Below, in pieces: positions 7,542 through 28,581 of a stretch of 53,524 nt of DNA. The position numbers and the translations under genes are program-made. A model generated the notes under the pieces. The model was not told the origin of the DNA. It did not search any database and saw only the letters and a list, made by a program, of their open reading frames with translations. Source of the stretch: Verrucomicrobiota bacterium (GTDB taxonomy: Bacteria; Verrucomicrobiota; Kiritimatiellia; SS1-B-03-39; UBA6053); assembly GCA_020831635.1 (NCBI GenBank), contig JAFIGC010000023.1, forward strand, positions 1 through 53,524, given 5' to 3'. Position 1 is the first letter of the stretch; the number at the start of each line of letters is the position of its first letter.

Positions 7542-7544
7542 AAA

Positions 7545-8525: not shown

Positions 8526-8526
8526 A

Positions 8527-9413: not shown

Positions 9414-9417
<4 letters not shown>
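8527..9417 (-). CDS. tadB: TadB, Flp pilus inner-membrane platform protein
   Basis: A 296-aa GspF/TadB-type protein. Two membrane helices occur at each end, with a cytoplasmic region between them. That region contains the family block LTEALVTMSNALRAGFSIQQAF and the glycine-rich IARQTGGNLTEVFELIA, hallmarks of TadB. The start ATG overlaps the tadA stop (ATGA), and tadC follows immediately, giving the usual tadABC order. It pairs with TadC in the assembly platform. Confidence 0.93.
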
Positions 9418-11150
<1,733 letters not shown>

Positions 11151-11152
11151 AT

Positions 11153-11977: not shown

Positions 11978-12023
11978 ACAGTCAATTCTCCTAAGATTTA
12001 CGTTCCCTTTGAATACACGATTT

Positions 12024-12692
12024 TCACTCTACGCCAAGCGGTTTATGCATTCGAACCACGCTTGTGTATCCGTCTTTGCCACTTTTTGCGCTCAAAACCG
12101 CCATTTGATCCCTTTGAATGAACATGCGCATCCCCCCGGTGTTCGTGGGCGAGGCCACCCAACCGTCGGCCTGCAAACTCCCGGAAAGCTGATCCAACAC
12201 CGCGTCGGGCGGAACCGGCGTCCGGGAAACTTCCACCGCCAAAAGATTGTCTTCGTCCCGGGTGTAAAAGGTGGGGGTGCTGTTCGGAAACGCGGGAATA
12301 TCCGTCAATTGGTGCTTTTGGGGCTTTCGCCCGGGCCGTCCGGCGTCGCGTTGACGCTGGTCGACATGCAAGACCCACCATTCGTCCGCCTCGGGACGGG
12401 GTTGTACCAGATAGCGGTGAACCCGCCCGTTCTCCACCGCCAATCCCCAGGCCACGTTTTCCCCGCCCATCCACGCGAAATTCCGCCCATGCTTGTTCTC
12501 CAACTCGGTCCGAATTTGGTGCAGGGACCCCTTAACCGCATACAGGCTGGTGTCTCCGCTCCCCTCTTGGAGACGGACGGGCGCCTGATATCCCCGCTGC
12601 CAGGCGTTATGCGCCACGGGCCGACGCCAAAAGACCTGCGCGGTCACCATGCAGGCGCTCAAAAGAAATGCGGCAAGGATCAGGCGTTTCAT
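12024..12692 (-). CDS. Secreted protein of unknown function in Tad locus
   Basis: A 222-aa protein with a cleavable-looking signal peptide (MKRLILAAFLLSACMVTAQV). I recognise no domain in the mature part. It has alternating beta-like segments (RVHRYLVQPR, EWWVLHVDQR) and a C-terminal segment (MRMFIQRDQMAVLSAKSGKDG) that looks like a small lipoprotein-type fold. ATG at 12692 overlaps the stop of the TadE-like gene (ATGA), which fixes the start. Position between a pseudopilin and cpaB suggests a periplasmic Tad accessory protein, but no function can be assigned. Confidence 0.8.
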   Translation of the reverse strand: MKRLILAAFLLSACMVTAQVFWRRPVAHNAWQRGYQAPVRLQEGSGDTSLYAVKGSLHQIRTELENKHGRNFAWMGGENVAWGLAVENGRVHRYLVQPRPEADEWWVLHVDQRQRDAGRPGRKPQKHQLTDIPAFPNSTPTFYTRDEDNLLAVEVSRTPVPPDAVLDQLSGSLQADGWVASPTNTGGMRMFIQRDQMAVLSAKSGKDGYTSVVRMHKPLGVE

Positions 12693-13303
12693 CAGTAAAT
12701 GTCTCCCGTGCGGGTCATCCAAACCTGCACTTGAATGTCCACGGTATTGCGGTTGAAAAACAAGCGGCGCACGACGGGTAACACGGGAATGTTCAGATCC
12801 ATCCCGGTTCCCGCCACCAAGCCCATGCCCATCATCATTTCCATGCTGTCCTCCATGTCCGCGATGGGCGAACCCGGCACATGCTGCCTGACGCCCCCGG
12901 GGTTCATGGGCAACACAATTCGATTGTAGACATCCTCGGTGTTGCCACCGATGGCCCGGTCATCCACGGAATAGGTGCGCCCATCGGCGCCCTCGTACAT
13001 TTCCCGAACGTAATTGGGGATGTATAGACCGGTGATATCTTCGCCCAACATGCTCCGAGCCGTGGCGATACGGGTGGCTTCCACCCGGGCGTCCATGCGT
13101 CCCCTGCCCATGCGGCCCAATTGGAAGATGCCGCCGATCACGGCAAGCATGGCCACGATGCCAATGCAAAACTCGATCACGGCTTGGCCGGATTTGGAGT
13201 GCGGAGTGCGGAGCGAGGGGTGCGGAGTTCCTTGGCTCGTTGCCTGGACCCTCTTCACTCCGCACGCTGCATTCCGAACTCCACACTTCTGATTAGTGTC
13301 CAT
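12692..13303 (-). CDS. TadE-like pseudopilin with repeat-derived leader
   Basis: A 203-aa TadE/TadG-type pseudopilin. The processing motif SKSGQAVIEF is followed by a hydrophobic helix (CIGIVAMLAVIGGIFQLG). The mature domain of about 150 residues is otherwise unremarkable. The leader before SGQ is unusually long (about 36 residues) and is translated from a palindromic GC-rich repeat. GGAGGAGG nine bases before ATG 13303 supports this start. The gene overlaps the 3' end of tadG by 11 bases and the next gene by 4. Its likely role is a minor pilin for Flp assembly; the long leader may still be cleaved normally. Confidence 0.82.
   Translation of the reverse strand: MDTNQKCGVRNAACGVKRVQATSQGTPHPSLRTPHSKSGQAVIEFCIGIVAMLAVIGGIFQLGRMGRGRMDARVEATRIATARSMLGEDITGLYIPNYVREMYEGADGRTYSVDDRAIGGNTEDVYNRIVLPMNPGGVRQHVPGSPIADMEDSMEMMMGMGLVAGTGMDLNIPVLPVVRRLFFNRNTVDIQVQVWMTRTGDIY
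13196..13289. repeat. Palindromic TGCGGAGT-type repeat inside a pseudopilin leader
   Basis: Both ends are built from degenerate units of GTGCGGAGTG. A perfect 10-bp inverted pair lies at 13199-13208 and 13256-13265. A second, near-perfect pair lies at 13220-13231 and 13274-13286. The repeat lies entirely in the coding leader of the TadE-like gene and keeps the frame, adding about 31 residues before the SGQ motif. Confidence 0.7.
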
Positions 13304-14723
13304 GGAAGCTACCTCCTCCGCCACCGCCACCGCCGCCACCGGAGGGCTGGTCACACCTTGCCGAATTCACGGCAAGCCAGTCCAGCCCGGCTTGCCGGAA
13401 CGCCTGCACCTCCCACGTGCGCAATTGGTTGGCATACCAATTGTGGGCGGGAAGCACGGAGGGTCCGTGCTCCATGTATTGGGGAAGGTACAGCATGATA
13501 AATTCCAGCCAACCGGGCCGCAGGGTGCCATTGCCGCCACTCATGGTGGTGTCAATGGGAATCAAGCGCACGTCGGTATATGCGGGCAGAACCAAGCCGT
13601 GACTGTTGGGACGAACACGCCCGCCTTCGGGCCCCGGCAAACTGCCAAAGGGTTTCGCACCCGCCGTCCAGTTGATCACGTCCCCTCCGCGAAAGCCGGT
13701 ATGACGCTCGGTTTCCGTTCGCACCACAATGGCCGCATCCGCGCCCGCATAGTCAAATTCTTCCCGCACGTTGCCATCCCAGGGGAAATGCGAGGGAATT
13801 CGGCCCGTCCAACTGGACCAAGGACTGGAGCCATAATGGGCCCAGTCGGCATCAAAATCCTCCATGATCTCAGGGTCCGCGCTTTCGATGCGGTCGCGCA
13901 AATCGTTCATCAACGACGCCCAATCCGATTCGGGGGGCAGAACGGGGACGGAATCCCGCACCCGCACCCGGCGAAGGTGCAAGCTGAACACTTCCGAATT
14001 GACGGGCGGCGACACTTGGATGGGCGGCAATGCGGGCCAGTCCAGGAAAGAGGAGTAATTCTGGAGTTCATCAAAGGCGTTGTGGAAAAACCAGCACCAG
14101 CTTCGCCCGGCAATGGCATCGTAAAAGCCCGGATTGAGCAACAAATGATCGGAATGCGCGTATCCCCGGTAATACTGCCATCCCGCGTTCACGGCCAAGC
14201 CGTGTTCCGCCAACAAACTCAGCATGTCCGCATATTCTTCCCAGGCATTGGTAAATGGGGGCGTGGGGACAAAGGGCTCGGGATAAAAATCGGCATATTC
14301 ATTGTACACGATGTTGATATGCGTCCAAAGATCCTCTTGAAATTCAGGCTGATTGAAGAGCCCGTTGTTTTTCGCGGCCTGCTGGGATGCGAGAAATCCG
14401 AAAATCGGACCGCTGAAGGTCAGGCGTTTTTGAAGTTCGGAAATGGCGTCCGCTTCCGGGCTCTGGCCTTGGCCGGCGGAAAGGCTTTCCAAATGCGCCA
14501 TGGCCTGGGCCACGTTCAGCGAACCGATGGTGTTCAAACTCACCGCCTGCCAGCGGGCGCCCGCCAAGGCTGCGGCATCCCCGGAGTTGCGGCTCACCGC
14601 CTTGACATGCAAGGCCTTGTGCACATCAAAATAAAAGAGGGCCGCGAACGCAATCATCACCACGATCATGGTCATGAAGATGAGCGTTTGACCGGATTTA
14701 TTCGTGGGGCGTGTAAGCTGCAT
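13293..14723 (-). CDS. tadG: TadG-like pseudopilin
   Basis: A 476-aa TadG-type protein. The N-terminus NKSGQTLIFM leads into a membrane helix (IVVMIAFAALFYFDVHKA). The typical TadG block with SGDAAALAGA follows, where secreted pilus-like proteins keep small residues. The remainder is a large periplasmic region with many Trp and Pro, and no von Willebrand domain is evident. It ends in a run of ten glycines and SFHGH. ATG at 14723 follows four bases after tadE. TadG proteins are needed for Flp pilus formation or surface anchoring. The glycine-rich end overlaps the next gene's ribosome site. Confidence 0.85.
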   Translation of the reverse strand: MQLTRPTNKSGQTLIFMTMIVVMIAFAALFYFDVHKALHVKAVSRNSGDAAALAGARWQAVSLNTIGSLNVAQAMAHLESLSAGQGQSPEADAISELQKRLTFSGPIFGFLASQQAAKNNGLFNQPEFQEDLWTHINIVYNEYADFYPEPFVPTPPFTNAWEEYADMLSLLAEHGLAVNAGWQYYRGYAHSDHLLLNPGFYDAIAGRSWCWFFHNAFDELQNYSSFLDWPALPPIQVSPPVNSEVFSLHLRRVRVRDSVPVLPPESDWASLMNDLRDRIESADPEIMEDFDADWAHYGSSPWSSWTGRIPSHFPWDGNVREEFDYAGADAAIVVRTETERHTGFRGGDVINWTAGAKPFGSLPGPEGGRVRPNSHGLVLPAYTDVRLIPIDTTMSGGNGTLRPGWLEFIMLYLPQYMEHGPSVLPAHNWYANQLRTWEVQAFRQAGLDWLAVNSARCDQPSGGGGGGGGGGSFHGH

Positions 14724-14727
14724 GGGT

Positions 14728-15474
14728 TTATTCCAAATAGAGGTAGGCGTGATCCGCCAGACGGGCTTCGGAGCGAAGCCGAATATGGTCCCGTGCCGAA
14801 AACGCCCGGTAAAAAGGCATCCGCAGGGGATAATTGTGATTCACTTGCACGCCGACGGTGTACCCCGGCGTGCCCGTGTAGATCGGATATCCGATCTCCG
14901 ACCAGTCTTCGTAATCCAAAATCCCCGGCAATTGGGCATGGTTTTGCGCACCCAAATAAAGGGGGATTGCGAATTGCTCGATCTCGGCAAATTGACGGGA
15001 CCGCGGATTGGAGCGAATCGAAGCGTAAAACGATTCGCCGGCATTGAACTCACTCCATGCCTCCGCATCTCCAAACGGAATGCGCCCCGGAGAACGCATC
15101 TGCCCCGCATTGGCAATGCTGGCCACGCGGTTGACCTTGAAGACCATGAAACGGTTGAACCCAACCGCCCGGGCGCGAACCGAGGCGTCCGCCGCGTATT
15201 GGTTGATTTCGCGGGCCGTGTACATGAGCACGAGCTGCACCATTCCGAAGAGGATCAGGCACAGCAACATCATGATGCCAAAAGATTCCAGGATCGACTG
15301 ACCCGATTTCGCGCGAGGCGCACCGAAGTTTCGACTTCGGTCTCCACTTTCGCCCGCGGGGCGCATGGGGAGAACGGATTTTGTCAGATCAGATTGATCC
15401 GACGGATCAGTCTGATCAATGCGTTCAGATAAATCCGGGATCGCTTCTGGCCGGATGGAAAGAAGCCGGTTCAT
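14728..15474 (-). CDS. tadE: TadE pseudopilin with repeat-derived leader
   Basis: A 248-aa TadE-type pseudopilin. The motif AKSGQSILES at about residues 56-65 is followed by the hydrophobic helix FGIMMLLCLILFGMVQLVLMY and then the TadE signature TAREINQYAADASVRARAVG. The leader before SGQ is about 57 residues if ATG 15474 is used. Starting at the internal ATG 15366 gives a shorter leader, but it has no ribosome site. The long version is encoded by two hairpin-forming segments. TadE is a minor pilin of the Flp system, processed by the prepilin peptidase. Confidence 0.87.
   Translation of the reverse strand: MNRLLSIRPEAIPDLSERIDQTDPSDQSDLTKSVLPMRPAGESGDRSRNFGAPRAKSGQSILESFGIMMLLCLILFGMVQLVLMYTAREINQYAADASVRARAVGFNRFMVFKVNRVASIANAGQMRSPGRIPFGDAEAWSEFNAGESFYASIRSNPRSRQFAEIEQFAIPLYLGAQNHAQLPGILDYEDWSEIGYPIYTGTPGYTVGVQVNHNYPLRMPFYRAFSARDHIRLRSEARLADHAYLYLE
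15387..15417. repeat. Near-perfect 15-bp palindrome in tadE leader
   Basis: GATCAGATTGATCCG (15387-15401) and CGGATCAGTCTGATC (15403-15417) are inverted complements at 14 of 15 positions with a one-base centre. A smaller hairpin, ACCGAAG around 15322 with CTTCGGT, lies 60 bases downstream in the coding sense. Both are translated in frame in the tadE leader, before the processing site. Confidence 0.75.
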
Positions 15475-16087: not shown

Positions 16088-17431
16088 TTATTTTCCTTGG
16101 AAGAAAAAGAACCACCAGAGAAAAAGCAGCGTGAAACCCACGAAAAACACCAGTCCCGCCCAACTGAGCATGCGTAGGAAAAGTCCGGGACGGTACGCGG
16201 GGTCCACCCAGGGGGCGCGAATGACCTTGAAATGTATCCAGGCAAACACGGGAGAGGTGAGGAAGGAGATCACCATGGCCACCTCCAACATCTGCCCGAG
16301 GCTCTGCAGAAAAAATTTGGTGATGATGTACGTGGCCAGCACGCTGACCGCAATCCAAAAGCCGTGCACCTTGCGAAGCTCTCCTTTGGGGGTCTCGCTC
16401 CCATACAGCATGCAGCAGGTCGCCAGGGAACGCGGATAACCGTCCATGCAGGTCAAGGTGGTGCTGAACATGGCCGTGAAGGCGGCGATGGCGATGATCC
16501 AATAGGACCAAGAACCGATGGATTCGGTATAGAGATCGACCAATTGAGCCGAAAACGCGGCGCTGGCCATGGAAAACTCCCGTCCTGAGCCGTGCAAAAT
16601 CAATGCGCCCAACGCCAGGAAAAACACCGCCAGCACCACGGTCACGATATATCCGATGTGAAAATCGATCATGGCCTGGTGCATCGTGGCCCGGTGTCCG
16701 GTTTGTTTTTCCCGGGCTTTCATCCAGAGGGATGGCCAAATGGCCACGTCAATCGGGGCGGGCATCCAGCCCATGAAGAGAATGATAAACCCCAGCCCGG
16801 CCAGATCCCAAGGCGAACTGGCGGTGAACCCCTCTACGGTTTCAACGGGATTCAGGGCGCCGGCCACCACCGCCGCGAAGGTCGAAAGGGCCAGCAACAG
16901 GATCACCACCTTGGCCACGCCATCCAACAGACGATAATGGCCCAACAAAATGAGGAGGGCGCAAAGACCGGCCACGATCAGCGTGAGTTCGGGCAGGGCA
17001 ATGTTCAGGGAGGCCACGCCCAGATTCAGGGAAAGACTGGCCGTAATCATGGCCACCCCGGCAATGTTCAAAAAGGCGTTGACCAGATTGAGGGCAAAAT
17101 AGGAAAGCAGGTAGGGTTTGCCCATGCGCCGGAACCCCTGCAAAATCGTCTCCCCGGTCGCGGCCGTATATCGCTCTCCATAGAGGAAAAAGGGATATTT
17201 GAAAAGGTTGGCCAAAAGCAAAAGTCCCAGCAGGGACCAGCCGAATTTCGCACCCGCCTGCGTGGAGGAAACCAAATGCGAGCCCCCGATGGCCGCGCCC
17301 GCCATGAGAATGCCCGGCCCCAACGCCTTGATCAACTGGCGGCGCTCGGACATAGGTTCGGACATACCTTCGGACAAGGGCTCGGTCGCGGATTTGAGAT
17401 TGTCGTCGGACGGGGTGTTTTCGTTGGACAT
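16088..17431 (-). CDS. Nramp-related (SLC11-like) membrane transporter
   Basis: A 447-aa protein with about eleven hydrophobic segments, of the Nramp/LeuT-fold divalent metal transporter superfamily. The first helix reads GPGILMAGAAIGGSHLVSST, where classical Nramp has the metal-binding DPGN motif, which is absent here. The sixth helix reads GWMPAPIDVAIWPSLW in place of the classical MPH motif. These changes at both metal-site helices point to a subfamily with different cargo, as in Nramp-related Mg2+ or non-metal transporters. GAGGGAG about six bases before ATG 17431 fixes the start. It follows the heparinase-like gene by 44 bases, so it may be the last gene of that operon. Confidence 0.85.
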   Translation of the reverse strand: MSNENTPSDDNLKSATEPLSEGMSEPMSERRQLIKALGPGILMAGAAIGGSHLVSSTQAGAKFGWSLLGLLLLANLFKYPFFLYGERYTAATGETILQGFRRMGKPYLLSYFALNLVNAFLNIAGVAMITASLSLNLGVASLNIALPELTLIVAGLCALLILLGHYRLLDGVAKVVILLLALSTFAAVVAGALNPVETVEGFTASSPWDLAGLGFIILFMGWMPAPIDVAIWPSLWMKAREKQTGHRATMHQAMIDFHIGYIVTVVLAVFFLALGALILHGSGREFSMASAAFSAQLVDLYTESIGSWSYWIIAIAAFTAMFSTTLTCMDGYPRSLATCCMLYGSETPKGELRKVHGFWIAVSVLATYIITKFFLQSLGQMLEVAMVISFLTSPVFAWIHFKVIRAPWVDPAYRPGLFLRMLSWAGLVFFVGFTLLFLWWFFFFQGK

Positions 17432-17475
17432 AGTGGCTCCCTCTATGCGGCTACATCCGTTTTCCAAGATTTTTT

Positions 17476-19764
17476 TCAGTCCTCGCGTTCCAATCGTAAC
17501 TCGCCATCCACCATGCGAATGATCCGCTTGCCAATGCGGACAAATTCACCCCGGTCATCGCGCTCCATACTGAAATTGGGCGCGAAACCCGGCTGGATGG
17601 TGACGATTTCCAAATTCTGTGCGCCAAGACGGGCCTGGCGACTGACCCGGTTGGCGTTTTCCCCGCCGGATCCCACGAAATCGCCTGTCCTCAGATCCCG
17701 CCGGGTTTCGGGACGGGGCGCGGGCGCGCGTGCGGGCGTGGAACCGCCACCGCCACCAAAGCGCTCCAGCAATGCAGAGGGAACACCCTCGACCTCTTTC
17801 GCGGGCGGCGGTGGGGGACTCTTGCCCAGGCCGGGTCCCCGCAGAAACAGCATCGGCGCTCCGGAAAGCCCGCTCAAGTCGGCGATAAACACCTCCCTGT
17901 CGGTGAACGCAATGCTCACCCGCCCCTCTTCCGCTTCACGATATTCCCGCACGTCGCCCACCGGCCCTTGAAACAGGTCGGTAAACCCATGCCCGATCAA
18001 CTGTCCGGGATTCTTGCGGCTGGTGGCCACCAGATCTTTTCCGTCCGTCCAACCGCTGCGATACACGAAATACTGTTCGCCGGGACCGTAGAGGGTATGG
18101 GAAATCACGTCCCCGGGATTCACGGGTTCCTCCCCAATCGGCCAGAAAAGCAGGGCGAACACCGCATGATGGGGATACCAAATCGCGTCGTAGGTGCGCG
18201 GACCTTCCGGCTCCACCTCGTTTTGGTAAAACCACAATAATGCCGGACGGTGCGCTTCGGGCACGATTCCGAAGCCCCGGGCAAAATCTCCGCCGGTGCT
18301 CATCCCTCCCCGATCAAATACTTCCGAAGCATAGATCCCCTGCATGGGCGAGCGGAGACGGTTCCCGTCCCGGACGATTTCATACATCCACTTGGACACC
18401 AGCCACTCCCCTCCCGAAAAGGGCTCCACAAAATCCAGGGCCAGACTGGTGCGCAGGGCATGCAGGTAGGTGATCAGTCCGGTGTTGGAATTCAGACGCC
18501 CCCCGTGATGCCCCTCGAAAAACCAGGCCGAATCCCCGTACCCCACTTCCAAGGCACGGCGGGCGCGTTGCAGAAACACCCGGTGCGCGCGCTCCGTAAT
18601 TTCATCATCCGTGCCGGGATCGCCGAGAATGGCGAGGATCGCGGTGCCCCCGCCCCCGTTCCAGGCGCCGTAGTGATTGGAATGGGGCGAATGCTGTCCG
18701 CCGAGGGTGTTGAACACCAAATCGCCGTCCACGGGTTCCGCGAGCGCGGTTTCCCCGCCAAATTCCGTGCCGGGAGGCGCGAAAACGGCATCCTGAATTC
18801 TGCGCGCGACCTCGGTGCGGAATTCCTCGTCCCAAGCATGGTAACAAAGGTCATAGGCCATGGCCACGGCCGCGAAACTGGAGCCGGCGCGAAGCTTTCC
18901 GCCGGGGCGAATGAAACTGTAGCGGGGATCGCGGTCCCGCTGTCCATCCAAGGCCTTCTGCACGCTCTGCCTGGCCAAGTCGGCGTATTTTTCATCCTCG
19001 GTCAGTTGATACAACATGCCGAAGCCCACCCCGTGCCAGAGCGTGTAGGCACCCACGGGCAAGCGGTCGGACGCCCCATAGGATTGGGTTGCCGACTGAA
19101 AGCGGGTGGGCATCTCCTCGCCCCCGCCGAGCAAAAGACGCAGACGCTCGACGATCTCCCGCCCCTCGGGCGTTTCCGCGCGGGCCCGAATGGCGGGCAG
19201 ATCCTCGGCCCGAAAAAGAATGCGGGGGTGCTCGCCGGGTTCGAAGGGGGTTCGTCCCGCGAACGCATCCGGCCAAGGACGCTCCCGGCGCCGTCCCCTC
19301 ACCTCCCCGCTCACCTCCACCTCCCGGAAAACGCCGGTGAAGGTGCCGGTGTATCGATCTCCGTCGCGACGGAGATCCAATTCATACACCGCGTCCCCTC
19401 CCGGCATCCACGGATCGGGATGGATCTCCATCTCCACCCGCATGAAAATGCGTCCGTCCTCCTCCCGCACCTCTTGTAGGCGTCCCTCGTGATCCATCTG
19501 ATTGAACCAGCGATCCCGATTGTCGTTTTCACCGCCAGGGGTGCGCATCCCCGTCCAGCCCATGAACCGCTCCCGCCATTCGCCATCCCGCTCAAAGAGA
19601 TAAAGCGCCACATCCCGCGGAGTGTCGGGATCGGGATGAAACAATGCGCCACGCAATTCCAAATCCACGTTCCGAAAAACGTCCGGACCGGCTGACACCG
19701 CACTGGAAACCGCCATCGCAGCCATTAGCAATGCCCTTGAAAATCTGAATTGGAAATCTTGCAT
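17476..19764 (-). CDS. Heparinase II/III-like secreted enzyme
   Basis: A 762-aa exported protein: signal peptide (residues 1-25), an N-terminal beta domain (about 28-155, ending TGTFTGVFREVEV), then an alpha/alpha toroid-like region from about residue 168 (HPRILFRAEDLPAIRARAET), and a C-terminal beta-sandwich-like part. This is the heparinase II/III or alginate-lyase-type layout. Candidate active-site elements are HSNHYGAWNGGGG and FFEGHHGG, and a Tyr near FVYRSGW. A Pro-rich loop and a Gly-rich insert (PPPPPAKE, GGGGGS) lie near residues 645-670. It should act on a uronic-acid polysaccharide in the periplasm or outside. The substrate cannot be read from sequence. It shares architecture with the gene at 25945. 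Confidence 0.82.
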   Translation of the reverse strand: MQDFQFRFSRALLMAAMAVSSAVSAGPDVFRNVDLELRGALFHPDPDTPRDVALYLFERDGEWRERFMGWTGMRTPGGENDNRDRWFNQMDHEGRLQEVREEDGRIFMRVEMEIHPDPWMPGGDAVYELDLRRDGDRYTGTFTGVFREVEVSGEVRGRRRERPWPDAFAGRTPFEPGEHPRILFRAEDLPAIRARAETPEGREIVERLRLLLGGGEEMPTRFQSATQSYGASDRLPVGAYTLWHGVGFGMLYQLTEDEKYADLARQSVQKALDGQRDRDPRYSFIRPGGKLRAGSSFAAVAMAYDLCYHAWDEEFRTEVARRIQDAVFAPPGTEFGGETALAEPVDGDLVFNTLGGQHSPHSNHYGAWNGGGGTAILAILGDPGTDDEITERAHRVFLQRARRALEVGYGDSAWFFEGHHGGRLNSNTGLITYLHALRTSLALDFVEPFSGGEWLVSKWMYEIVRDGNRLRSPMQGIYASEVFDRGGMSTGGDFARGFGIVPEAHRPALLWFYQNEVEPEGPRTYDAIWYPHHAVFALLFWPIGEEPVNPGDVISHTLYGPGEQYFVYRSGWTDGKDLVATSRKNPGQLIGHGFTDLFQGPVGDVREYREAEEGRVSIAFTDREVFIADLSGLSGAPMLFLRGPGLGKSPPPPPAKEVEGVPSALLERFGGGGGSTPARAPAPRPETRRDLRTGDFVGSGGENANRVSRQARLGAQNLEIVTIQPGFAPNFSMERDDRGEFVRIGKRIIRMVDGELRLERED

Positions 19765-19781
19765 AAAAACACCTTCATCGT

Positions 19782-20399
19782 TTAATAGGCTTCAAGGGTT
19801 CGGGCGATCACGCCATAGGCGACATTCATCGCGGTCTGTTCCTCCCGCGCCTCAGGAATGATCCTTGACCGAGTGTCGTGAATGACGTAGGCGCGGTCCC
19901 GGAAAAAATGACCGGGCGGCGGATCGGCAAGCTCCGGCAATTCCGCCTTGGCCTCGCGATAGTCGCGGATTTCGTTTTCCTCCGTCCAGCCGCGCACGAT
20001 GAACGATCCGTCCATGGTGCGGGACAAATGTCCGACGGTCTGATCCAGCGCCTCGTGTTGGCGGCGAATTTCGCGGTGCGCCCGCAAACGCTCCCGCGCC
20101 TCGGCGGGCTCCAGCAATGGACGCGCCTCCAAGAGAAAATACGGACGGGCCGAATCCCCAAGGGCTTCGGGACTCCGCCGCAGCGCCACCGATTCGGTTT
20201 TCCACACCAGAATATCCTCTGCCGCCAGGCTCAGCCCCGGCAGTTCCGGGGCCGCCGCTCCCAAAGTCGCGCTCCACCCCCGTGGCAAGTCGCGGTTCAG
20301 CGTGCGGACCAGATCCGCGCCGCTGTTTCTCGTCCCGTCCCCGCACCCCCCGGCGAGCAACAAACACACGATTCCCATGCAAAAGGCAAACGATTTCAT
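19782..20399 (-). CDS. Small lipoprotein of unknown function
   Basis: A 205-aa lipoprotein with signal MKSFAFCMGIVCLLLAGGC (lipobox LAGGC, Cys19). The mature part begins with NSGADLVRTLNRDLPRGWSA and is helix-rich toward the end. No domain is recognised. The start ATG overlaps the stop of the upstream HEAT lipoprotein (ATGA), and the heparinase-like gene follows after 17 bases. It is therefore part of the ExbB/ExbD operon, where it could be an outer-membrane partner. Confidence 0.8.
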   Translation of the reverse strand: MKSFAFCMGIVCLLLAGGCGDGTRNSGADLVRTLNRDLPRGWSATLGAAAPELPGLSLAAEDILVWKTESVALRRSPEALGDSARPYFLLEARPLLEPAEARERLRAHREIRRQHEALDQTVGHLSRTMDGSFIVRGWTEENEIRDYREAKAELPELADPPPGHFFRDRAYVIHDTRSRIIPEAREEQTAMNVAYGVIARTLEAY

Positions 20400-22996
20400 G
20401 AACGACTCCCGGTCGGATTTTTTTCATCATTCGGCCGCGTTCGCTGCCGCTCCAAGGCTTCCGCCGCCCAGCGGCGCACCGCCTCATCCTCGTCCTCCAG
20501 CGCCTTCTCCAACGCCTCTCGGGCCCGAGGTTGCGGAAAAGCCCCCAAGGCGCTGACCGACCATTGACGCACCCGGGCATCCTCGTGGGCGGCCAATTCA
20601 ACAAGTGCCAACAAGGCCCGCTCCGTAGCCCCCACCCGCTTCATCACTTCAATTAGTCTGCCCAGCACGTGCCGTGGAAGCGCGTCGGATTCCCCGACCG
20701 CCACAAAAAGCGTCTCCACGCCCTCTTCTCCCAGATGGGCCAGAAGCTCCACGGCATACATCCCCGGATCCACCCCGGCCGGATTGTCCGGCGCGGGCGT
20801 TTCCCGCAGCAAACGGTCCAGTTCGGGAATGGCCCGTGACCCCAGATCCAGCACCGCCGGCCCCACCGCGGCCTCTTGCAATGCCGGACCGATCGACGGA
20901 TCGGCCAACAAACCCACCAACACCTTGGACGCGCGGTCCTCCTCGAAACCGGCCAGCGCCCGAATGGCCGTGGCAGGCGTGTTCACACCACCATCCTTCC
21001 GGCGAATCAGGTATAGCAAGGTATCGATGCCCCGCGGATCCCCGAGGTCAACCAAGGCCGGAATCCCGAAGTCATCCGCCACCTGGTCCACATCGTGTAC
21101 GGTTCGCAGCGGCCTTTTCCGCAATGCCGCATCCAGCGACTCAAACGCGGAACGGTCCCCGATCCGTCCCAGAGCGCGCATGGCCTCGCGCACAGGACCA
21201 AAGCTGGCATACGCATCCACCTCGGCGACCAAAGTCGGCACCATGTCCATCGATTCAATCCGCCCGGCCACAACAAGAATATCCTCCATCAAGCGCCGCC
21301 ATTGATCAGGGCGTTCCCTGTCCAGTCGCGCATGCAGTTCCGCCAAGGCCGGGCCGGGGCGGGGATCGCCAATGTCCCCCAGCGTACTGAGCGCGGCACG
21401 ACGGAGGGGCACCGGATGACGGTTCTCAAGCGCAAGAGCCAAGACCGCATCCAAGGCAGTGGCATCGCCCATTCGCCCCAGGGCCTCCAACGCCGCCATC
21501 CGCTCGGCGTTCTCCTCCGTTTTCTCCAGCCGCGAAAGCACGGCACCGACCGCTTCCGGCCCGCCATGTTTCCCCAAAACCGAAATCGCCTCCAAGCGGA
21601 GATTCGGATCGTCGCCATTCAAAATGCCGAGCACAAGGGCCTGCCCCCGTGCGTCCCCGCGCCGCAAAAGATGCAAGGCGGCTTGCGCCGCCAATTTTTC
21701 ATCCACATCCGCCAACCGTTCCGCCAACGCATCGCGAAGCCTCGCTTCCCCCGCATCCATTTCCGCTTGCTCACGCGGAACGGGAGCGGTGATCGCACCG
21801 CGCAGCGCGGCGGGATCCCATCCGCGATCCGCTTTTTTTTCGGCGGACACGTCCCCGCTCGCGAGCAGATCCATCGCCTGCAAACGCACCTCCCGGGGAC
21901 GTTCGGAATCCGCCACGACGCCGTAAAGCGCATCCAGACCCTCAGCCCCGGCATTTCGAAACGCCGCCCGGGCCGCCCCGGCGAATTCCCTGCGCTCGGA
22001 AGTGATCATGTCCTGCAAAGCCTCCATCGCCGTCGCTTCCCCGATGCCCAACAACGCGCCGGCAACGCTTTCGCGAACCCGCGCGATTTCCGCCGTGCGC
22101 TGACGCTCCACCAGCTTGGCGAATTCAGTGGCGGCCCGCTCTTCGTCCCGTTCCAGCCAATCATGCATCCCGGGGCTGATGTGTCCTCCGGTCCGCCGAC
22201 GGACTTCATCGAAGTGCACTTTGATTTGCTGGATGTCAAAGCGGGTGGGTCCCTGTTCCAGACGACGTTTGCGCACCGCCTCATCGGCTTCGCCCAACGG
22301 CTCTTCCGCCAAGCGAACCAATGCCGGCACCGCCGTCTCATCGCCATGGATGGCCAAAGCCTCCGCCGCGCGAATGCGCAGCGCGGCGGCGCGGGCCTCC
22401 AAGGCGGCAATCAACAGGTCCGCACGAGCGTGGTTTTCTCCGTTTTCAAGAACCGCGTTGAACACCAAGGTTTGTTCCTCCGAAGCCAGTTCGGGAAAGC
22501 GGCGCACCAAAAGATCGAACGCCTCTCCGCCGGTGGCGCCGAGAGAAGCGAGCGAAGATTGACGCACCGCCGGCGAGGGGTCCGTCCGGTGCCGTTCGGC
22601 CAGCGCTTCCGCGGCCGGTTTCCAGCGAAGCCGCCCCAGCGCCTGCGCGGCCGCCAAGCGAATCGCCTCGGCATCCGCCTCCAGCAACTCGACAAGCTCC
22701 CCGCCCACTTCATCGGCGGGATAAGCGGCCAGGCTCCGAATGGCGGCGATGCGCACGCGGGGCTGATGATCCGTACGGGCCGCACCAACCAACGCCGGCA
22801 AGGCCTCCGGATGCGTTTCTTTTCCCAGTGCGGCGGCGGCGGATTCGCGCGCCATCGGCTCTCCCTCGCGCAAGCGACGAATCTCATCCGCCACCGGAGA
22901 TTCGCTCAAATCCCGTGCGTCCCTCCCGCAACCGGCCGCGAGCAAAAGCCCCAACAGAAGCGCGAAAATACGATGGCGGCACTTATTGCAATTCAT
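20396..22996 (-). CDS. HEAT-repeat lipoprotein
   Basis: An 866-aa lipoprotein. The signal MNCNKCRHRIFALLLGLLLAAGC ends in a lipobox. Nearly all of the remainder consists of HEAT/PBS-type helical repeats (for example ALRIRAAEALAIHGDETAVPAL, and RVRQWSVSALGAFPQPRAREAL at the end), about 20 in all. A predicted interaction scaffold, probably in the periplasm. Start is uncertain: ATG 22996 gives the cleanest signal peptide. An ATG at 23008 and a GTG at 23014 lie upstream, inside the exbD end. It overlaps exbD by 14 bases and the next lipoprotein by 4. HEAT lipoproteins of this kind are common in planctomycete-verrucomicrobial genomes. Confidence 0.85.
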   Translation of the reverse strand: MNCNKCRHRIFALLLGLLLAAGCGRDARDLSESPVADEIRRLREGEPMARESAAAALGKETHPEALPALVGAARTDHQPRVRIAAIRSLAAYPADEVGGELVELLEADAEAIRLAAAQALGRLRWKPAAEALAERHRTDPSPAVRQSSLASLGATGGEAFDLLVRRFPELASEEQTLVFNAVLENGENHARADLLIAALEARAAALRIRAAEALAIHGDETAVPALVRLAEEPLGEADEAVRKRRLEQGPTRFDIQQIKVHFDEVRRRTGGHISPGMHDWLERDEERAATEFAKLVERQRTAEIARVRESVAGALLGIGEATAMEALQDMITSERREFAGAARAAFRNAGAEGLDALYGVVADSERPREVRLQAMDLLASGDVSAEKKADRGWDPAALRGAITAPVPREQAEMDAGEARLRDALAERLADVDEKLAAQAALHLLRRGDARGQALVLGILNGDDPNLRLEAISVLGKHGGPEAVGAVLSRLEKTEENAERMAALEALGRMGDATALDAVLALALENRHPVPLRRAALSTLGDIGDPRPGPALAELHARLDRERPDQWRRLMEDILVVAGRIESMDMVPTLVAEVDAYASFGPVREAMRALGRIGDRSAFESLDAALRKRPLRTVHDVDQVADDFGIPALVDLGDPRGIDTLLYLIRRKDGGVNTPATAIRALAGFEEDRASKVLVGLLADPSIGPALQEAAVGPAVLDLGSRAIPELDRLLRETPAPDNPAGVDPGMYAVELLAHLGEEGVETLFVAVGESDALPRHVLGRLIEVMKRVGATERALLALVELAAHEDARVRQWSVSALGAFPQPRAREALEKALEDEDEAVRRWAAEALERQRTRPNDEKNPTGSRS

Positions 22997-23423
22997 CGTG
23001 CACACCATGGGCACTGCGGAGATGGACGTTGCGCATGCCGTATAATTCCAAGGTATCGACCATATCCATCAGGTGATAATATTGCACCCGCCGGTCCACG
23101 TCCAGGCGCACCGGCAGATCCGGACGCTCCCGCGAGACGCTGGCAAGCACCTGAATCAGTTCGTGGCGCGACACCGGCGCCTGGTTCCGATGCATGGCGC
23201 CGTCATCCACGTACCGCTCCCCTTCCCGGGTCACGGTAATCACCAGTTCCTCGGCATGGTTGGCGTCCTTGGCTTCAATCGCCTGAGGCATCTCGATGGC
23301 GAGTTCCTTGTGCGGCTTCTTCAGGCTGGCGGTCACCAAAAAGAAAATCAACAGCAGGAACACCATGTCGATGAGCGGCTCCATTTGCACATGGGGATCT
23401 TCGTCAGTTTCACGGCGTATCAT
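22983..23423 (-). CDS. exbD: ExbD/TolR-type proton-channel protein
   Basis: A 146-aa ExbD/TolR protein. A short cytoplasmic N-terminus (MIRRETDEDPHVQMEPLID) contains the Asp of the proton path (PLIDMVFLLLIFFLV) in a single membrane helix. The rest is a periplasmic domain. ExbD with ExbB forms the proton-motive-force motor that energises TonB-like proteins. ATG 23423 is used because the upstream TTG extends the protein by only five residues without support. The gene follows the TonB-position protein by 48 bases. Confidence 0.93.
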   Translation of the reverse strand: MIRRETDEDPHVQMEPLIDMVFLLLIFFLVTASLKKPHKELAIEMPQAIEAKDANHAEELVITVTREGERYVDDGAMHRNQAPVSRHELIQVLASVSRERPDLPVRLDVDRRVQYYHLMDMVDTLELYGMRNVHLRSAHGVHDELQ

Positions 23424-23471
23424 GAGAGGCGTCTCCAAAGAGGTTGAGAACGGGGTTACGAAAACAAAGGG

Positions 23472-24977
23472 TCACCGTGAGGCCTCCGAGGGAATGCCTT
23501 CGGTAAGCACGGGATCCTCATAGGTCATGAGAATTACCGAAAATCCGGTGGTGCCTGGCGCGTTTTCAAGCTTGAACAGGAATTGATTGATCCCCTTTTT
23601 GAGCGGCACCACCCGGAAATTATGGGCCGCGAAAGGCACCCAGGGCTGTTGTTCGGGCGGACCCTGCCAAACACGGCGGCCATTCACCCAGCAGACCCCG
23701 AAGTCGTCGCTCGCGAAGGAGGCCAACACCGTCCGGTCGGCGTCCGAATGCACTTCGGTGTAAAAATACCAAATGGCATAGGACTCATTGTCGATCACGA
23801 AGGGCTCGATGCGAATGCCGTTTTCCAGAAATTCGGGGTCCATCCGGCGGTATTTCCAGGTCAACCGCCGTCCGTCCTTGCCTTCGTAGGTGGCGTCCAA
23901 ATCCACCCCCGATTCGGGCGGATAGTGACGATCCAACTGGTCGAGGCGGCGCTGACGTCCGGGGTGTGTGAACGGGCCGACATAATACCAGCGGTCGATG
24001 CTCATCCATTCGGAGGGATGCGTCCCCTCCTCTCCCAAGGCATTTCCAAGGGAGACCGGCGGATTGATGACCCGCTGCAGACTGACCCGGCGGAGTTGGT
24101 TGGGGTTCAGATAGTGCCCGTAATAGGCCGTTGGCGGCGGAATCACGTCATAAAGTTCCCCGAACTGGTCGGACCTGCGCGTCTCCAGCTCCATGGCCAA
24201 CTCCACCCAGCGGCGCGCATTGACCACCATGTTCTCCGCCTCCAGATAGGTTTCATTCAACTCATCGCGGAACGCCTTGAAGCGTCCGTCGAGCACGGTG
24301 TCGATCTCCCGGTTGAGTTTTTCCGGTTCAATGTCACGCCGCACGGGCATGACCAGCCGGGTGCTGTCGATGGCGGCGCTGAAGGGAATCGGCTCTTCCG
24401 GATGCTCCACCAACTGCATGGCCCGGAAGCGCTCGTACAAACGTCCCGCCTCTTCCTCCATCGGCTGGTGCATCCGGTACAGTTCCAAGATGTCCTTTTC
24501 CTCGAAATTCGGCAAGGCGCTCCGTTCGATCACGGGCGGTTCGACATCCATCAACGGGGAGAAAACCGCATCCCGGTCGGGGCGTTCCGCCGTGGGCCAA
24601 GTACCCGCGGCAATGCTGCGACGTCGTTCTTCGTCGGCCTCGAACAGCCGGGCCAGATTCCGCTCCCGAATCTCGTTGAGCTGATCCCGGTACCCGGCCA
24701 ATTGCGTCAGAGTCCGGGTCAGACGACGGTGCTGCAATTCCAGAAGCGTGTCCATCGCCCGTTGAATCTCCGCCTCGCGGGCATCCATTTGCGGCGCCGG
24801 AGATCCATCGCCAAACACCATCGCCCGCAAGCGCGGACTCACCGCCAGGCTTGCCAACACGATCACGTGCAACAACACCGATGCGATGAAAAACTGCCGG
24901 ATGCGACGCATCCGCGCCGCCCGCCGGGCCGCCCGCTCCGGGGGCGTCCACACCGGAATATGGGGCCTCAGGCTCAT
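23472..24977 (-). CDS. TonB-position protein with one TM helix and C-terminal beta domain
   Basis: A 501-aa protein in the slot where TonB would be encoded. An Arg-rich cytoplasmic N-terminus (residues 1-25) precedes one membrane helix (about 32-52, FFIASVLLHVIVLASLAV), as in TonB. A long helical, coiled-coil-like stretch follows (about 60-290). Residues about 290-500 are a beta-rich domain with WYYVGPFTHPG, FASDDFGVCWVNGRRVW and VVPLKKGINQFLFKLENAPG. This resembles carbohydrate-binding or PA14-type jelly-rolls of secreted enzymes. No C-terminal TonB domain is seen. It starts at the exbB stop (ATGA overlap) and precedes exbD. Function is inferred: force transduction to an envelope polysaccharide system. 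Confidence 0.8.
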   Translation of the reverse strand: MSLRPHIPVWTPPERAARRAARMRRIRQFFIASVLLHVIVLASLAVSPRLRAMVFGDGSPAPQMDAREAEIQRAMDTLLELQHRRLTRTLTQLAGYRDQLNEIRERNLARLFEADEERRRSIAAGTWPTAERPDRDAVFSPLMDVEPPVIERSALPNFEEKDILELYRMHQPMEEEAGRLYERFRAMQLVEHPEEPIPFSAAIDSTRLVMPVRRDIEPEKLNREIDTVLDGRFKAFRDELNETYLEAENMVVNARRWVELAMELETRRSDQFGELYDVIPPPTAYYGHYLNPNQLRRVSLQRVINPPVSLGNALGEEGTHPSEWMSIDRWYYVGPFTHPGRQRRLDQLDRHYPPESGVDLDATYEGKDGRRLTWKYRRMDPEFLENGIRIEPFVIDNESYAIWYFYTEVHSDADRTVLASFASDDFGVCWVNGRRVWQGPPEQQPWVPFAAHNFRVVPLKKGINQFLFKLENAPGTTGFSVILMTYEDPVLTEGIPSEASR

Positions 24978-25711
24978 CAGACGCCTTCCCTGGTGGTGGG
25001 GGCGGCTTTTTTGCGCACAAACCACTCTACCGTCAGATCACGAAGCTGAGCCTCCAACAAATCCCCAAAGGAGTTGGTGCGGCTTTTGAAATAGTGAAAC
25101 AACCCCAGACACGGCACCGTAATCACCAAGCCGGTGGCGGTGGTGATCATCGCCTTGGAGATGTCCCCCGCAAAGATGCTCGGATCCCCCGTTTCACCCA
25201 GCAGCCGAAAATTTTGGAACGCCCCGATCATCCCCAGCACCGTGCCGAGCAGACCAATCAAAGGGGCCAGCCCGCCCACCACCGCCAAGGGCTGTGCCCG
25301 GCGGAAATGCAACCGCAACTCACTGGCCGCGATGTCCTCGGAAATCATCTTCACATCCGCGAAACCCGCCTCCCGATGATCCACCAACGTATGGACCGTG
25401 CGCGCAAGAATACTGTCGCTTTGATTGCACAGGGACAGCACCTCGTCATACTGACCTTTATGCCACAAGGCATTCGCTTCTTCCGAAAAGCCCTTGGGCA
25501 CAATCCGGTCCCGCCGCAAACGCAGCAAACGTTCCAAGGTGAACGCCAAGGCAATGATGCTGAGCACCAAAAGGCCCCACATGACATTGCCGCCCTTGGC
25601 CAGTTCATCCATCAAATTCTGAAACCCCTCCACCATGGAAGCCTGGGCCATCAGCGGGGTCGTAAGCAATGCGGTCGCCATCAGCGAAGCCGGGAGTCTG
25701 TGTTTTTTCAT
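24977..25711 (-). CDS. exbB: ExbB/TolQ-type (MotA/ExbB) proton-channel protein
   Basis: A 244-aa ExbB-family protein. It has a signal-like N-terminus (MKKHRLPASLMATALLTTPLMAQA), a first helix (WGLLVLSIIALAFTLERLL), a cytoplasmic region, and the family hallmark GLAPLIGLLGTVLGMIGAFQ with a paired third helix (MITTATGLVITVPCLGLFHY). The signal peptide before the first helix matches the longer ExbB subtype seen in many Gram-negatives. ATG 25711 was chosen over an upstream ATG because it gives this signal. It begins the operon that runs to the heparinase-like gene. Confidence 0.93.
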   Translation of the reverse strand: MKKHRLPASLMATALLTTPLMAQASMVEGFQNLMDELAKGGNVMWGLLVLSIIALAFTLERLLRLRRDRIVPKGFSEEANALWHKGQYDEVLSLCNQSDSILARTVHTLVDHREAGFADVKMISEDIAASELRLHFRRAQPLAVVGGLAPLIGLLGTVLGMIGAFQNFRLLGETGDPSIFAGDISKAMITTATGLVITVPCLGLFHYFKSRTNSFGDLLEAQLRDLTVEWFVRKKAAPTTREGV

Positions 25712-25832: not shown

Positions 25833-25944
25833 GAAGATGTTATTGTTTTCCAATCGAATTTCGCACTTGCGTTCATGCAGAATGTCATTATCCAAATACG
25901 GTAGTGCAGAAATATTCCGTTCAAAATATCTACCCCCTGAATCC

Positions 25945-28581
25945 ATGAAAAGCCCTCATTTCCCCGGCATCGCGTCCTCGTTCAGGCCTTTCGCAACCTG
26001 GATGCTCCTGTTTGCCGTCCCGCTTTGTCCGGCGGAATCGCCTCCCTCAGCCGCGCGGTTCACGGGAAAAACCATCCTCGTCCTCGAGGAAGCGCTTCCG
26101 GATGCACGGGGGGACCTTGTTCTGCCTTTCAACCTGCACCTCACCTGGGAATCCGGCGAAATCGTCAATGCCTGGGGCGAATCTTTCGGAGCGTTCAACA
26201 CCGTTCCCCATGAGGTCCATCAGATTGAATCCACCTTGACCCCGGAAGGCCTCCGACTCGACGTGGAAGCCCGCCTGCGGAGAGACATGTGGGTCGAAGG
26301 CGGCATCGGAAAATGGGAGATCAACCTGCGTCGCATCCCATCCGACGGACAGGTCTATTCGTTGGATCACAACGCCCTCCGCACCGGCACCGCCCTGGAA
26401 AGCTTCGAAGGGTCTTTTTCCGGGGTCTTTACCCGGGACGACGCGAGCCATCCGTCCGAAGGAAGCGCCCTGGGCATCCGTTGGGCCGCGCCCGGTCCGC
26501 CACAGCGTCCCCCCATTGCCCATGATGAACGCCCCCGGATTCTCATGCGGCAAACGGATTTGCCCGAACTCCAGGAGCGTCTGGAAAGCGATTTGGGACA
26601 GGCCATTGCCCGCGCCCTGCCGGAAACCTTCGGCCCCATCGGCCCCGCCATTCTCTACACCCTCACCGGAGAAGAAGACCACGCCCGCGAGGCCGCCAAA
26701 CGCACCCATGCCGAGATGACGGACCGCGAACGCATTTCCGAACATGAAACCCACCAGAGCACTTTCTGGGCCGACCGCGCCCTGCGGGCCGCCATCGCCC
26801 TCGACCACTGTTACGAGGCCTGGGAGCCGGAATTCCGCGCGGAAGTCATCGACTTCATCACCCGCATGTCCGAAAACTACCTCGACAGTCCCTGGCGTTC
26901 CGGGTCCGCTCCCATCACCCGCCCCGGCAACACCAAAGCCGACAAGATTTACGCCGCCAGCGGCATCGGCATGCTCGCGCTCAGGGGCCTCCCCGGCAGT
27001 CCGCCCCGTCCGCCCCCCGAATCGGCCAACCCGGGAGCCTCCGCCCTGCAGGCAAGGTTCGGCGCCCCGGAGGGCATTGATGCCGCCGCCCGCAGAGAGG
27101 CCTATGAACGGGCGCGTGCCTTTTGGGAGGAGAATGACGGGGCCGACCCACGCTACCTCAACGGCCTCGAAAAGGCCCGGCGCATCGTTTCCGTTTCCCT
27201 CTACAGCGCCATCGGCGAGGGCGGCAGCGGCGGCATGCCCTATCTCTACGACTTCGACCTCGCCTGGCGCAACGCCTTCGGCCAGCCCGTCAGTATCCGC
27301 CCCATCCTGTCCCTCGCCGCCACCGACGCCCTCTTCTCCACCCTTTGGCTGCCCGATGAAAATGGACGCCCCTCCCCCGAAAATCTCCTCGGAAGTTCAA
27401 CGGCCCTCAACGGGGCCATGATCAGCCGCTACTTTGCTTCGGCCGACCCCGAACTGCGCCCCGCCATCGCCTGGTACTGGTTGCAACTTGCCGGCATCGC
27501 AAACGGCCACTTGGACGGACCCGAAGACGCGGAAAAACTGATCGAAACCATGCGCGACGATCCGATCGCCCTGCATTACGCCCTTCGCGAATGGCCCTTG
27601 GACGACTTCCAAGTCACCTCCCCCGCCGACATCCTGCCGCACGCCTTCGAGGACAAAGCCCGCGGTGATTTTTGGTTCCGCAACGCTTGGAGCGGACCCG
27701 ACGACATCCTCGCCAACCTTGCCACCCGCCAACTCGGATCCCGCCGTCCCCACACCCGCGCCACCGATCCCTATGCCGGCACCTTCCGGATCCACGGACT
27801 CGGACACACCTGGGTTCACGACGGACACCTTCCCCGCAACCAATGGGCCAATCCCCTCCGCTACAACCTCGTTCAACTCCCCGAAGTCCACACCAACAAC
27901 TGGGCCCAGGGACGGGTCCTCGACTATATTTCCCACCCGCACGGCGCCTCCGTGCGCCTCGACCTCAGCCTCATGTACGAAAAACATGAATACGTCGAGG
28001 AAACCGCCATGGTCACCGAAACCTTCCGCGGCAACCTCACCCGGGAACGCCCCGTCACCCGCAACGTTCACCGCCTCGGCGACATCGGGGTGGACGCCAC
28101 CCGCATCTTCGCCACGGATTTTTCCGGCCGGGCCGGCGTTCCCGCCGTTTTCGCCCTCGCCGACCGCCTCTCCGGCGACCACGCAAAAGAATGGCAACTC
28201 CACGTCACCGATCTCGCCGACAGCGAAGTCCGGGTTGAAGGCAACACCTTCCACATCACCAAAGGGGACGCCACCCTCACCGGCACCTTCATCGCCCCCG
28301 CCGACGTCAAAATCGAAAAACGCCTCCAATACACCAGCGAAACCTTCGTCACCATCTACAAAGACTACGCCTACCAAAACTACACCCGCGACCTGCTCAT
28401 CGCCAGCGGTCCCCGGGGAAACGAAGGCGAATTTCTGCTCGTCATGACCCTGAGCGAAGGACCGGAATCCCCCCGGGTGACCCGCATAACCGAAGAAAAT
28501 CCCGTGGCCCTAATCAACGGACTTCAGGTTCATTTCGGCGAAAAAGCCATCACCTTTGAGTCCCCTACCCAGACCCCTTGA
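25945..28581 (+). CDS. Heparinase-like paralogue, exported
   Basis: An 878-aa exported protein transcribed divergently from the exbB operon. A signal segment (MKSPHFPGIASSFRPFATWMLL, continuing to LCPAES) precedes an N-terminal beta domain ending FSGVFTRDD, then the toroid region beginning RPRILMRQTDLPELQERL. That phrase matches the first heparinase-like gene (HPRILFRAEDLPAIRARAET) in order and spacing, so the two are paralogues. The C-terminal beta domain runs from about residue 580. The start ATG 25945 is preferred over upstream in-frame starts because it gives the signal peptide; no strong ribosome site is seen. Its substrate is unknown, and it may act on a different linkage of the same polymer. 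Confidence 0.8.
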   Translation: MKSPHFPGIASSFRPFATWMLLFAVPLCPAESPPSAARFTGKTILVLEEALPDARGDLVLPFNLHLTWESGEIVNAWGESFGAFNTVPHEVHQIESTLTPEGLRLDVEARLRRDMWVEGGIGKWEINLRRIPSDGQVYSLDHNALRTGTALESFEGSFSGVFTRDDASHPSEGSALGIRWAAPGPPQRPPIAHDERPRILMRQTDLPELQERLESDLGQAIARALPETFGPIGPAILYTLTGEEDHAREAAKRTHAEMTDRERISEHETHQSTFWADRALRAAIALDHCYEAWEPEFRAEVIDFITRMSENYLDSPWRSGSAPITRPGNTKADKIYAASGIGMLALRGLPGSPPRPPPESANPGASALQARFGAPEGIDAAARREAYERARAFWEENDGADPRYLNGLEKARRIVSVSLYSAIGEGGSGGMPYLYDFDLAWRNAFGQPVSIRPILSLAATDALFSTLWLPDENGRPSPENLLGSSTALNGAMISRYFASADPELRPAIAWYWLQLAGIANGHLDGPEDAEKLIETMRDDPIALHYALREWPLDDFQVTSPADILPHAFEDKARGDFWFRNAWSGPDDILANLATRQLGSRRPHTRATDPYAGTFRIHGLGHTWVHDGHLPRNQWANPLRYNLVQLPEVHTNNWAQGRVLDYISHPHGASVRLDLSLMYEKHEYVEETAMVTETFRGNLTRERPVTRNVHRLGDIGVDATRIFATDFSGRAGVPAVFALADRLSGDHAKEWQLHVTDLADSEVRVEGNTFHITKGDATLTGTFIAPADVKIEKRLQYTSETFVTIYKDYAYQNYTRDLLIASGPRGNEGEFLLVMTLSEGPESPRVTRITEENPVALINGLQVHFGEKAITFESPTQTP

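Follow-up and report, generated by a model that had tools for sequence, protein, structure and literature searches.

Gene content and organization of the locus

The window analysed here is a stretch of 53,524 nucleotides from a Verrucomicrobiota bacterium and corresponds to one contig (C23) of its 6.0 Mb draft genome. It carries seven minus-strand genes in one tight run, from exbB (start at 25711) to an Nramp-like gene (end at 16088), in the order exbB, transducer, exbD, HEAT-repeat lipoprotein of 866 amino acids (aa), small lipoprotein, heparinase-like gene and Nramp-like gene, in which neighbouring genes either overlap by 1-14 bases or stand 8-50 bases apart. The second gene occupies the position of TonB between exbB and exbD; its product, here called the transducer, appears to be a TonB/TolA-like force transducer whose tip is of a new type, and is the main subject of this analysis. 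Open reading frames (ORFs), Pfam and NCBIfam bear out a preliminary description of the locus, made from the sequence alone, in that all the genes it named are present on the minus strand as described. A second heparinase-like gene, which lies divergently across from exbB (25837-28581, plus strand), was absent from that description. Both databases confirm ExbB, ExbD and the HEAT repeats, NCBIfam supports the Nramp assignment, and the transducer and the small lipoprotein have no meaningful match in either. The features are as follows:

24977-25711, minus strand: ExbB/TolQ-type proton channel subunit, 244 aa (Pfam MotA_ExbB, 80 bits, E 1.5e-22)
23472-24977, minus strand: transducer in the TonB position, 501 aa (ORF; transmembrane (TM) helix, helical middle domain, PA14-like tip)
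24828-24896, minus strand: TM helix of the transducer, residues ~28-50 (S33-x3-H37-x6-L44, the TonB/TolA docking spacing)
24126-24500, minus strand: helical middle domain of the transducer, residues ~160-284 (iterated HMM search)
23514-24011, minus strand: PA14-like beta-sandwich tip, residues ~323-488 (Foldseek/VIA; hhalign to PA14)
23703-23708, minus strand: codons of Asp424-Asp425, aligned to the D-cis-D sugar/calcium pair of PA14 lectins
22983-23438, minus strand: ExbD/TolR (Pfam ExbD, 86 bits, E 2.4e-24); likely start 23423, 146 aa
20396-22996, minus strand: HEAT-repeat lipoprotein, 866 aa (HEAT_2, 175 bits, E 4.3e-52, nine stretches; lipobox LAAGC)
19782-20399, minus strand: small lipoprotein, 205 aa, of no known family (lipobox LAGGC; no Pfam match)
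17476-19764, minus strand: HepL, secreted heparinase-II-superfamily lyase-like protein, 762 aa (profile match and model)
25837-28581, plus strand: second heparinase-like protein, 914 aa, a distant paralogue of HepL (blastp E 4e-15)
16088-17467, minus strand: Nramp-family-like transporter, 459 aa (NCBIfam Nramp_1, 58.1 bits, cut-off 50; 8-base gap)

The transducer and its motor

The likeliest start of the transducer is the ATG that overlaps the exbB stop codon and gives 501 aa, a GTG start giving 517 aa being less likely. A single TM helix (SVLLHVIVLASLAVS) is followed by a helical middle part and, at the C-terminus, a beta domain. No TonB_C domain matches it in Pfam at E 0.1, though TonB_C is detected elsewhere in the genome; sequence searches of the PDB return no relative, and no Pfam family covers any scanned protein of the transducer family. 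By operon, the nearest named relatives are a metagenome-assembled genome (MAG) called 'PVC group bacterium', Verrucomicrobia bacterium UBA6053 and a MAG assigned to Phycisphaeraceae, which points to a bacterium of the PVC group, most likely of the Verrucomicrobiota taken broadly. Full-length relatives of the transducer are 63, 61 and 40% identical. A scan of the genome contigs with a single protein gave zero matches, and a 4-row alignment gave four loci.

In E. coli TonB the docking residues are spaced S-x3-H-x6-L-x3-S. A Ser-His-Leu-Ser (SHLS) motif is the means by which TonB and TolA engage their motors (PMC12204202). The window transducer has S33, H37, L44 and S47, the last residue one position early relative to that spacing, and the S, H and L are invariant across four full-length relatives. 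In 34 distinct homologous TM segments S and H are accompanied mostly by L at +11 and mostly by T (T/S) at +15; as the segments were chosen by S-x3-H, the independent support comes from L and T alone. S-x3-H occurs in 13 of 266 other ORFs from the same loci (200 aa or longer and hydrophobic near the N-terminus), 9-10 of which are separate SHLS-type ORFs adjoining a PA14-type protein in motor operons, and the background is about 3/256 TM ORFs, or ~1%. All 43 single-exbD operons have an SHLS-type helix, carried by the PA14-type protein itself or by an ORF next to it. Some families encode TM helix and tip on two adjacent ORFs rather than on one (L047, L049-L051, L159, L161). Operons with two exbD genes mostly have no SHLS in the transducer (L041, L043, L125, L141, L142, L145, L149-L158, L160, L163-L165). 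An association between a second exbD and the absence of SHLS looks strong in raw counts (43/0 versus 3/17, Fisher 1e-12), but on the tree it reduces to two independent changes and is a clade-level, suggestive pattern only.

The partner genes encode a motor of the usual type. ExbB begins with a signal-like segment and keeps the motor segments GLLGT and TTATG (conserved columns across 63 homologues), and the TM Asp of ExbD, in PLIDMVFLLLIFFLV, is one of four columns kept in at least 95% of 90 homologues. The channel Thr segments and this Asp are, by sequence and column conservation, those of a 5:2 ExbBD/TolQR motor. The best match of ExbD is TolR (NCBIfam, 57 bits), at a score under that model's cut-off. 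These sequence features support the middle protein well as a TonB/TolA-like force transducer, one with a novel tip. Its own genome also has two TonB_C proteins, together with six plug domains of TonB-dependent receptors, which are all on contigs other than C23. Since canonical TonB and six receptors are present, the motor of the transducer is an additional, separate machine. A canonical TonB-domain protein of this genome (L172:4022-4795, contig C136), whose gene adjoins two ExbB genes, has a TM helix without the SHLS histidine, SVVLASLACTLALFLAV. In the closest relative an ORF between exbD and the HEAT gene (L055:876-1781, plus strand) contains two ExbD-type periplasmic domains, with a signal-anchor-like start and without the usual ExbD TM Asp segment.

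The PA14-like tip

The preliminary description placed a jelly-roll-like, non-TonB domain at the end of this one-TM protein and proposed its comparison with carbohydrate-binding families. The first point is borne out, and the architecture can be stated more sharply as an SHLS helix and a PA14-like domain with an Asp-Asp pair that aligns with the D-cis-D pair of PA14 lectins. In an AlphaFold2 model of the transducer (five sequences) strands begin near residue 325, and Foldseek/VIA matches residues 323-488 to PA14, to the carbohydrate-binding modules (CBM) CBM35/29/61 and to glycoside hydrolase beta-sandwiches with Z 6.3-8.5. Profile comparison is stronger evidence of a PA14 relationship than fold matching: hhalign of 81 tips against 14 PA14 domains from nine related genomes gives probability 81.5 and E 1.1e-5, compared with 0.1 for an ExbD control. 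The alignment centres on the SDD...W-x-N-G stretch and puts the Asp pair of the tip on Asp136-Asp137 of the PA14 lectin 6m8m. Those two residues are the D-cis-D pair, with which PA14 lectins bind calcium and sugar (PMC6650083); in MpPA14 it is Asp110-Asp111 (PMC8092209). The pair is present in 79 of the 81 tip copies. The other two, both degenerate and both without the pair, belong to a single PQQ-type protein of 1443 aa (L042:14023-18354), which is encoded 3' of the divergent lyase and does not count among the motor family; within the family the pair is kept in 79 of 79. A von Willebrand factor A (vWA) fold has no Pfam match, the top fold matches are beta-sandwiches, and the model, although modest, is nearly all-beta rather than alpha/beta. 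The tip appears to be a remote PA14-like beta-sandwich and would bind sugar, likely in a calcium-dependent manner.

Distribution of the transducer family

At E 1e-10 the transducer family has matches in 56 of the 346 class genomes, and a sample of 387 genomes from the phylum contains 35 with a match. About 75 neighbourhoods of Verrucomicrobiota loci were retrieved, containing 80 ORFs with a tip domain. A same-strand exbD lies within 6 kb of 71 of these, where about 1% would be expected by chance (a rough estimate, from 11 ExbB genes in 6.0 Mb); both exbB and exbD are nearby in 65, and several of the remainder are cut off by contig ends. The helical middle domain, as detected by iterated HMM search, is common to 67 of the 80. 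The preliminary description asked whether the protein always co-occurs with exbB, exbD and the HEAT lipoprotein; it does so for the motor genes to the extent given by these counts, but not for the HEAT lipoprotein, which is limited to a five-member clade. Pairing of the transducer with a motor, by contrast, extends across the phylum.

A TonB-position protein without ExbB/ExbD in relatives had been named in advance as a finding that would speak against the proposed system. It was seen once, at L040 (G011, contig C149), where there is no exbD beside the transducer and the exbB side is lost at the contig end; the same genome also holds a complete copy with exbB and exbD.

Lipoproteins and heparinase-like proteins of the window clade

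In a tree of tip domains the window groups with L055, L039, L040 and L042 (support 99) and then with L041 and L043 (support 97), with a tool warning of long branches meeting at this grouping. Homologues of the HEAT lipoprotein are found only in the four inner relatives, L039, L040, L042 and L055; the small lipoprotein is 33-35% identical in L040 and L055 and gives HMM matches in L039 and L042. Both lipoprotein genes lie 3' of the transducer in all five inner-clade members, and the order exbB-transducer-exbD-HEAT recurs in L039 and L042. At L040 the genes run lyase, transducer, HEAT, small lipoprotein, PQQ protein, and exbD is missing from its place ahead of HEAT. Because these genes stay together even without exbD, they are suggested to form a cohesive module, which may use the motor of the complete G011 copy. 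The two lipoproteins are probably located at the outer membrane.

The N-terminus of HepL resembles a signal peptide. A profile of four relatives matches Pedobacter heparinase II over the N-terminal toroid (E 6e-5), and NCBIfam points weakly to heparinase HepB. The model of HepL, poor in confidence with a mean pLDDT of 48.7, shows a toroid followed by a beta-sandwich and matches chondroitinase, GAGases, PL17 and heparinase II with VIA Z 16-19.6. This low-confidence architecture and the sequence relation agree with the heparinase II/III superfamily, so that the fold assignment is good and lyase activity is putative. The divergent lyases keep the segment that resembles the C-terminal active-site region of heparinase II.

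Heparinase-like genes adjoin the transducer in five of the seven clade loci, namely the window (two genes), L040, L041, L042 and L043; the other two, L039 and L055, are truncated contigs. In UBA6053 the gene is divergent from exbB in the same place as in the window (L042 11389-13974). Two genomes were counted and have about 16-20 heparinase-like genes each; in UBA6053, 7 of 16 are on the 222-kb motor contig (P 4e-6 under random placement). An 809-aa protein downstream in L055 is lyase-like by eye and was set aside, as no match supports it. Sulfatases are uninformative as a hint to the substrate, with none on contig C23 and a mild presence on the UBA6053 contig. The polysaccharide would be acidic and likely contain uronic acid. 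The earlier proposals of parts in three compartments and of a heparinase-like enzyme are supported, and that of a system for an external polysaccharide has the lyase linkage as its one support and stays tentative.

The Nramp-type gene, which had been listed as possible, is present (NCBIfam Nramp_1, 58 bits) and is probably not part of the conserved system: no homologue occurs in the loci compared with the window genes. In its TM1, GAAIGGSHLVSSTQAGAKFGW, GGSH stands at the position of the DPGN of metal-transporting Nramps, and the protein may not be an ordinary manganese or iron importer.

Proposed mechanism and alternative explanations

The gene set suggests a machine driven by the proton motive force, in which 5:2-type ExbB/ExbD would use the proton gradient to drive an inner-membrane-anchored transducer. 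The TM helix would dock on ExbB through the SHLS pattern and then pull, and the helical segments would extend into the periplasm. The PA14-like tip, in place of the TonB C-terminal domain, would hold a glycan or a glycan-bearing partner, and the HEAT and small lipoproteins would make up an outer-membrane-side assembly on which the pull acts. The two secreted heparinase-superfamily proteins would cut an anionic, likely uronic-acid-containing polysaccharide. Such a machine would most likely power the uptake or periplasmic handling of the polysaccharide or its fragments, rather than export, in parallel with ordinary TonB. We give about an even chance to the explanation in its general form, a TonB/TolA-like transducer driven by the proton motive force, with a new type of tip, coupled in the window clade to the handling of acidic polysaccharide. 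A more specific version is tentative and rather doubtful; it proposes a widespread transducer class whose calcium-dependent lectin tip pulls, in place of a TonB-dependent receptor, a glycan or a partner that bears one, with receptor-independent uptake of acidic polysaccharide in the window clade.

Several observations weigh against this explanation. The operon encodes no outer-membrane channel, and a tip that binds sugar would be turned towards the periplasm rather than the exterior, unless its ligand were already inside. The transducer model is modest (mean pLDDT 61, with the tip at about 60-73 over much of its length), and a VIA Z of ~8 is near the level of unrelated beta-sandwiches, which are also among the tip matches, so that the fold alone is not decisive. 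Pfam PA14 has no match to the transducer at E 0.1 and is thus under the gathering cut-off. HepL has an alignment gap where the UBA6053 protein has NHPNAGTF, near the HQDAGAF segment of heparinase II. The broad family is mostly without lyases, and polysaccharide handling may be a clade-specific use of the transducer.

The occurrence of the motor-transducer core in many families, in operons without lyases, is in keeping with Tol-Pal-like envelope maintenance, in which the tip grips an envelope glycan or a lipoprotein partner, the HEAT protein serves as anchor at the outer membrane, the motor pulls the outer membrane inward during division or stress and the lyases trim the cell's own surface polymer. 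The TolR match of ExbD, below its cut-off as it is, and the lipoproteins of the operon fit this too. However, Pfam detects no TolB or Pal domain in the operon or in the genes close to it, the patchy spread of the family (56/346 genomes of the class) is ill-suited to essential housekeeping and the paralogous copies in G011 resemble substrate-specific duplication; we regard this explanation as rather unlikely. The motor might alternatively move or expose a self-made polysaccharide or adhesin, in export, gliding or surface display, while the heparinase-like proteins clear misplaced periplasmic polymer, as AlgL does in alginate export. Motor-plus-transducer modules power gliding or secretion in other systems, and the HepL N-terminus agrees with such a role. 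The vWA class of transducers has been suggested to drive gliding or secretion as well (PMC12204202). Against this, no glycosyltransferase or polymerase genes are seen in the operon, and the clustering of lyase genes in UBA6053 looks more like degradation; we regard export or gliding as unlikely.

Finally, the operon could be that of a generic transducer with HEAT and lyase genes co-transcribed but sharing no function, and most relatives outside the seven-member clade indeed have neither gene. Such a chance neighbourhood is improbable in view of the fixed place of the two lipoprotein genes in every inner-clade member, the recurrence of lyase-like genes beside the transducer although each of the two counted genomes has only about 16-20 of them, and the intact module of L040. 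The uptake or handling of acidic polysaccharide is the explanation we prefer. It offers a candidate answer to the question of how Verrucomicrobia-type bacteria that have no SusCD loci power large-polysaccharide handling, a poorly understood step, and the Asp-Asp pair and the SHLS pattern make the transducer directly testable by point mutation.

Other loci in the window

A bacterial alpha-2-macroglobulin (1765 aa) adjoins a PBP1C-type peptidoglycan synthase (728 aa) at 39046-46403. A Tad/Flp-type pilus or secretion locus occupies 5967-15474, with an ATPase of 578 aa that is an FHA-T2SSE fusion and a TadE/G-like protein at 13293-14723. An HMG-CoA reductase gene is located at 47383-48426.

Comparison with known systems

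No named system with this exact gene set was found in the literature searched, in agreement with the preliminary description, and the open-access literature yielded no paper describing a PA14-tipped transducer class. A possible link to Akkermansia mucin loci with ExbBD has no supporting paper in the literature searched and is not claimed; M60 peptidases are absent from the two searched genomes of the small-genome genus g149. The enzymes of the locus resemble the heparinase II/III lyases (PL21, PL17, GAGase) in the N-terminal heparinase II sequence match and in the toroid and beta-sandwich of the model, but the window lyase-like protein has no Pfam lyase match and has an extra N-terminal beta-domain. 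The tip shares with the PA14 lectins MpPA14 and MhPA14 the beta-sandwich and the Asp-Asp in an SDD...W/L-x-N/D-G context; the similarity is remote, and the window tip is on an inner-membrane motor transducer, not on a surface adhesin. As in polysaccharide utilisation loci of the SusCD type, lipoproteins and polysaccharide-degrading enzymes stand beside a transport-type module, whereas contig C23 has no TonB-dependent receptor plug and the window operon itself carries motor and transducer.

The likeness to TonB-ExbB-ExbD extends to ExbB and ExbD, a single SHLS-type TM helix, a periplasmic linker and a separate C-terminal domain. The window transducer differs in having a PA14-like tip rather than TonB_C, in a genome that has TonB besides, and in the HEAT lipoprotein and lyases that stand in place of a TonB-dependent receptor. 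With Tol-Pal (TolQ-TolR-TolA) it shares the motor type, the SHLS-type TM helix and the helical linker, but the TolA C-terminal domain, TolB and Pal were not found in the window operon. As the defining C-terminal domains of both were not found, the transducer is TonB/TolA-like yet a member of neither system. To our knowledge, ExbBD/TolQR motors were for a long time known with no tips other than TonB and TolA. In 2025 the vWA class of force transducers was described in the PVC group, linked to motors, with an SHLS TM helix and a non-TonB tip and often with a repeat-protein gene alongside (PMC12204202). This class is the closest published idea, having the same logic with another tip, and the text of that paper does not mention PA14 or a jelly-roll. 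The window system has a PA14-like rather than a vWA tip, a HEAT lipoprotein rather than a TPR protein, and one exbD. A PA14-like class, in operons across Verrucomicrobiota, would lengthen the list of motor tips after vWA.

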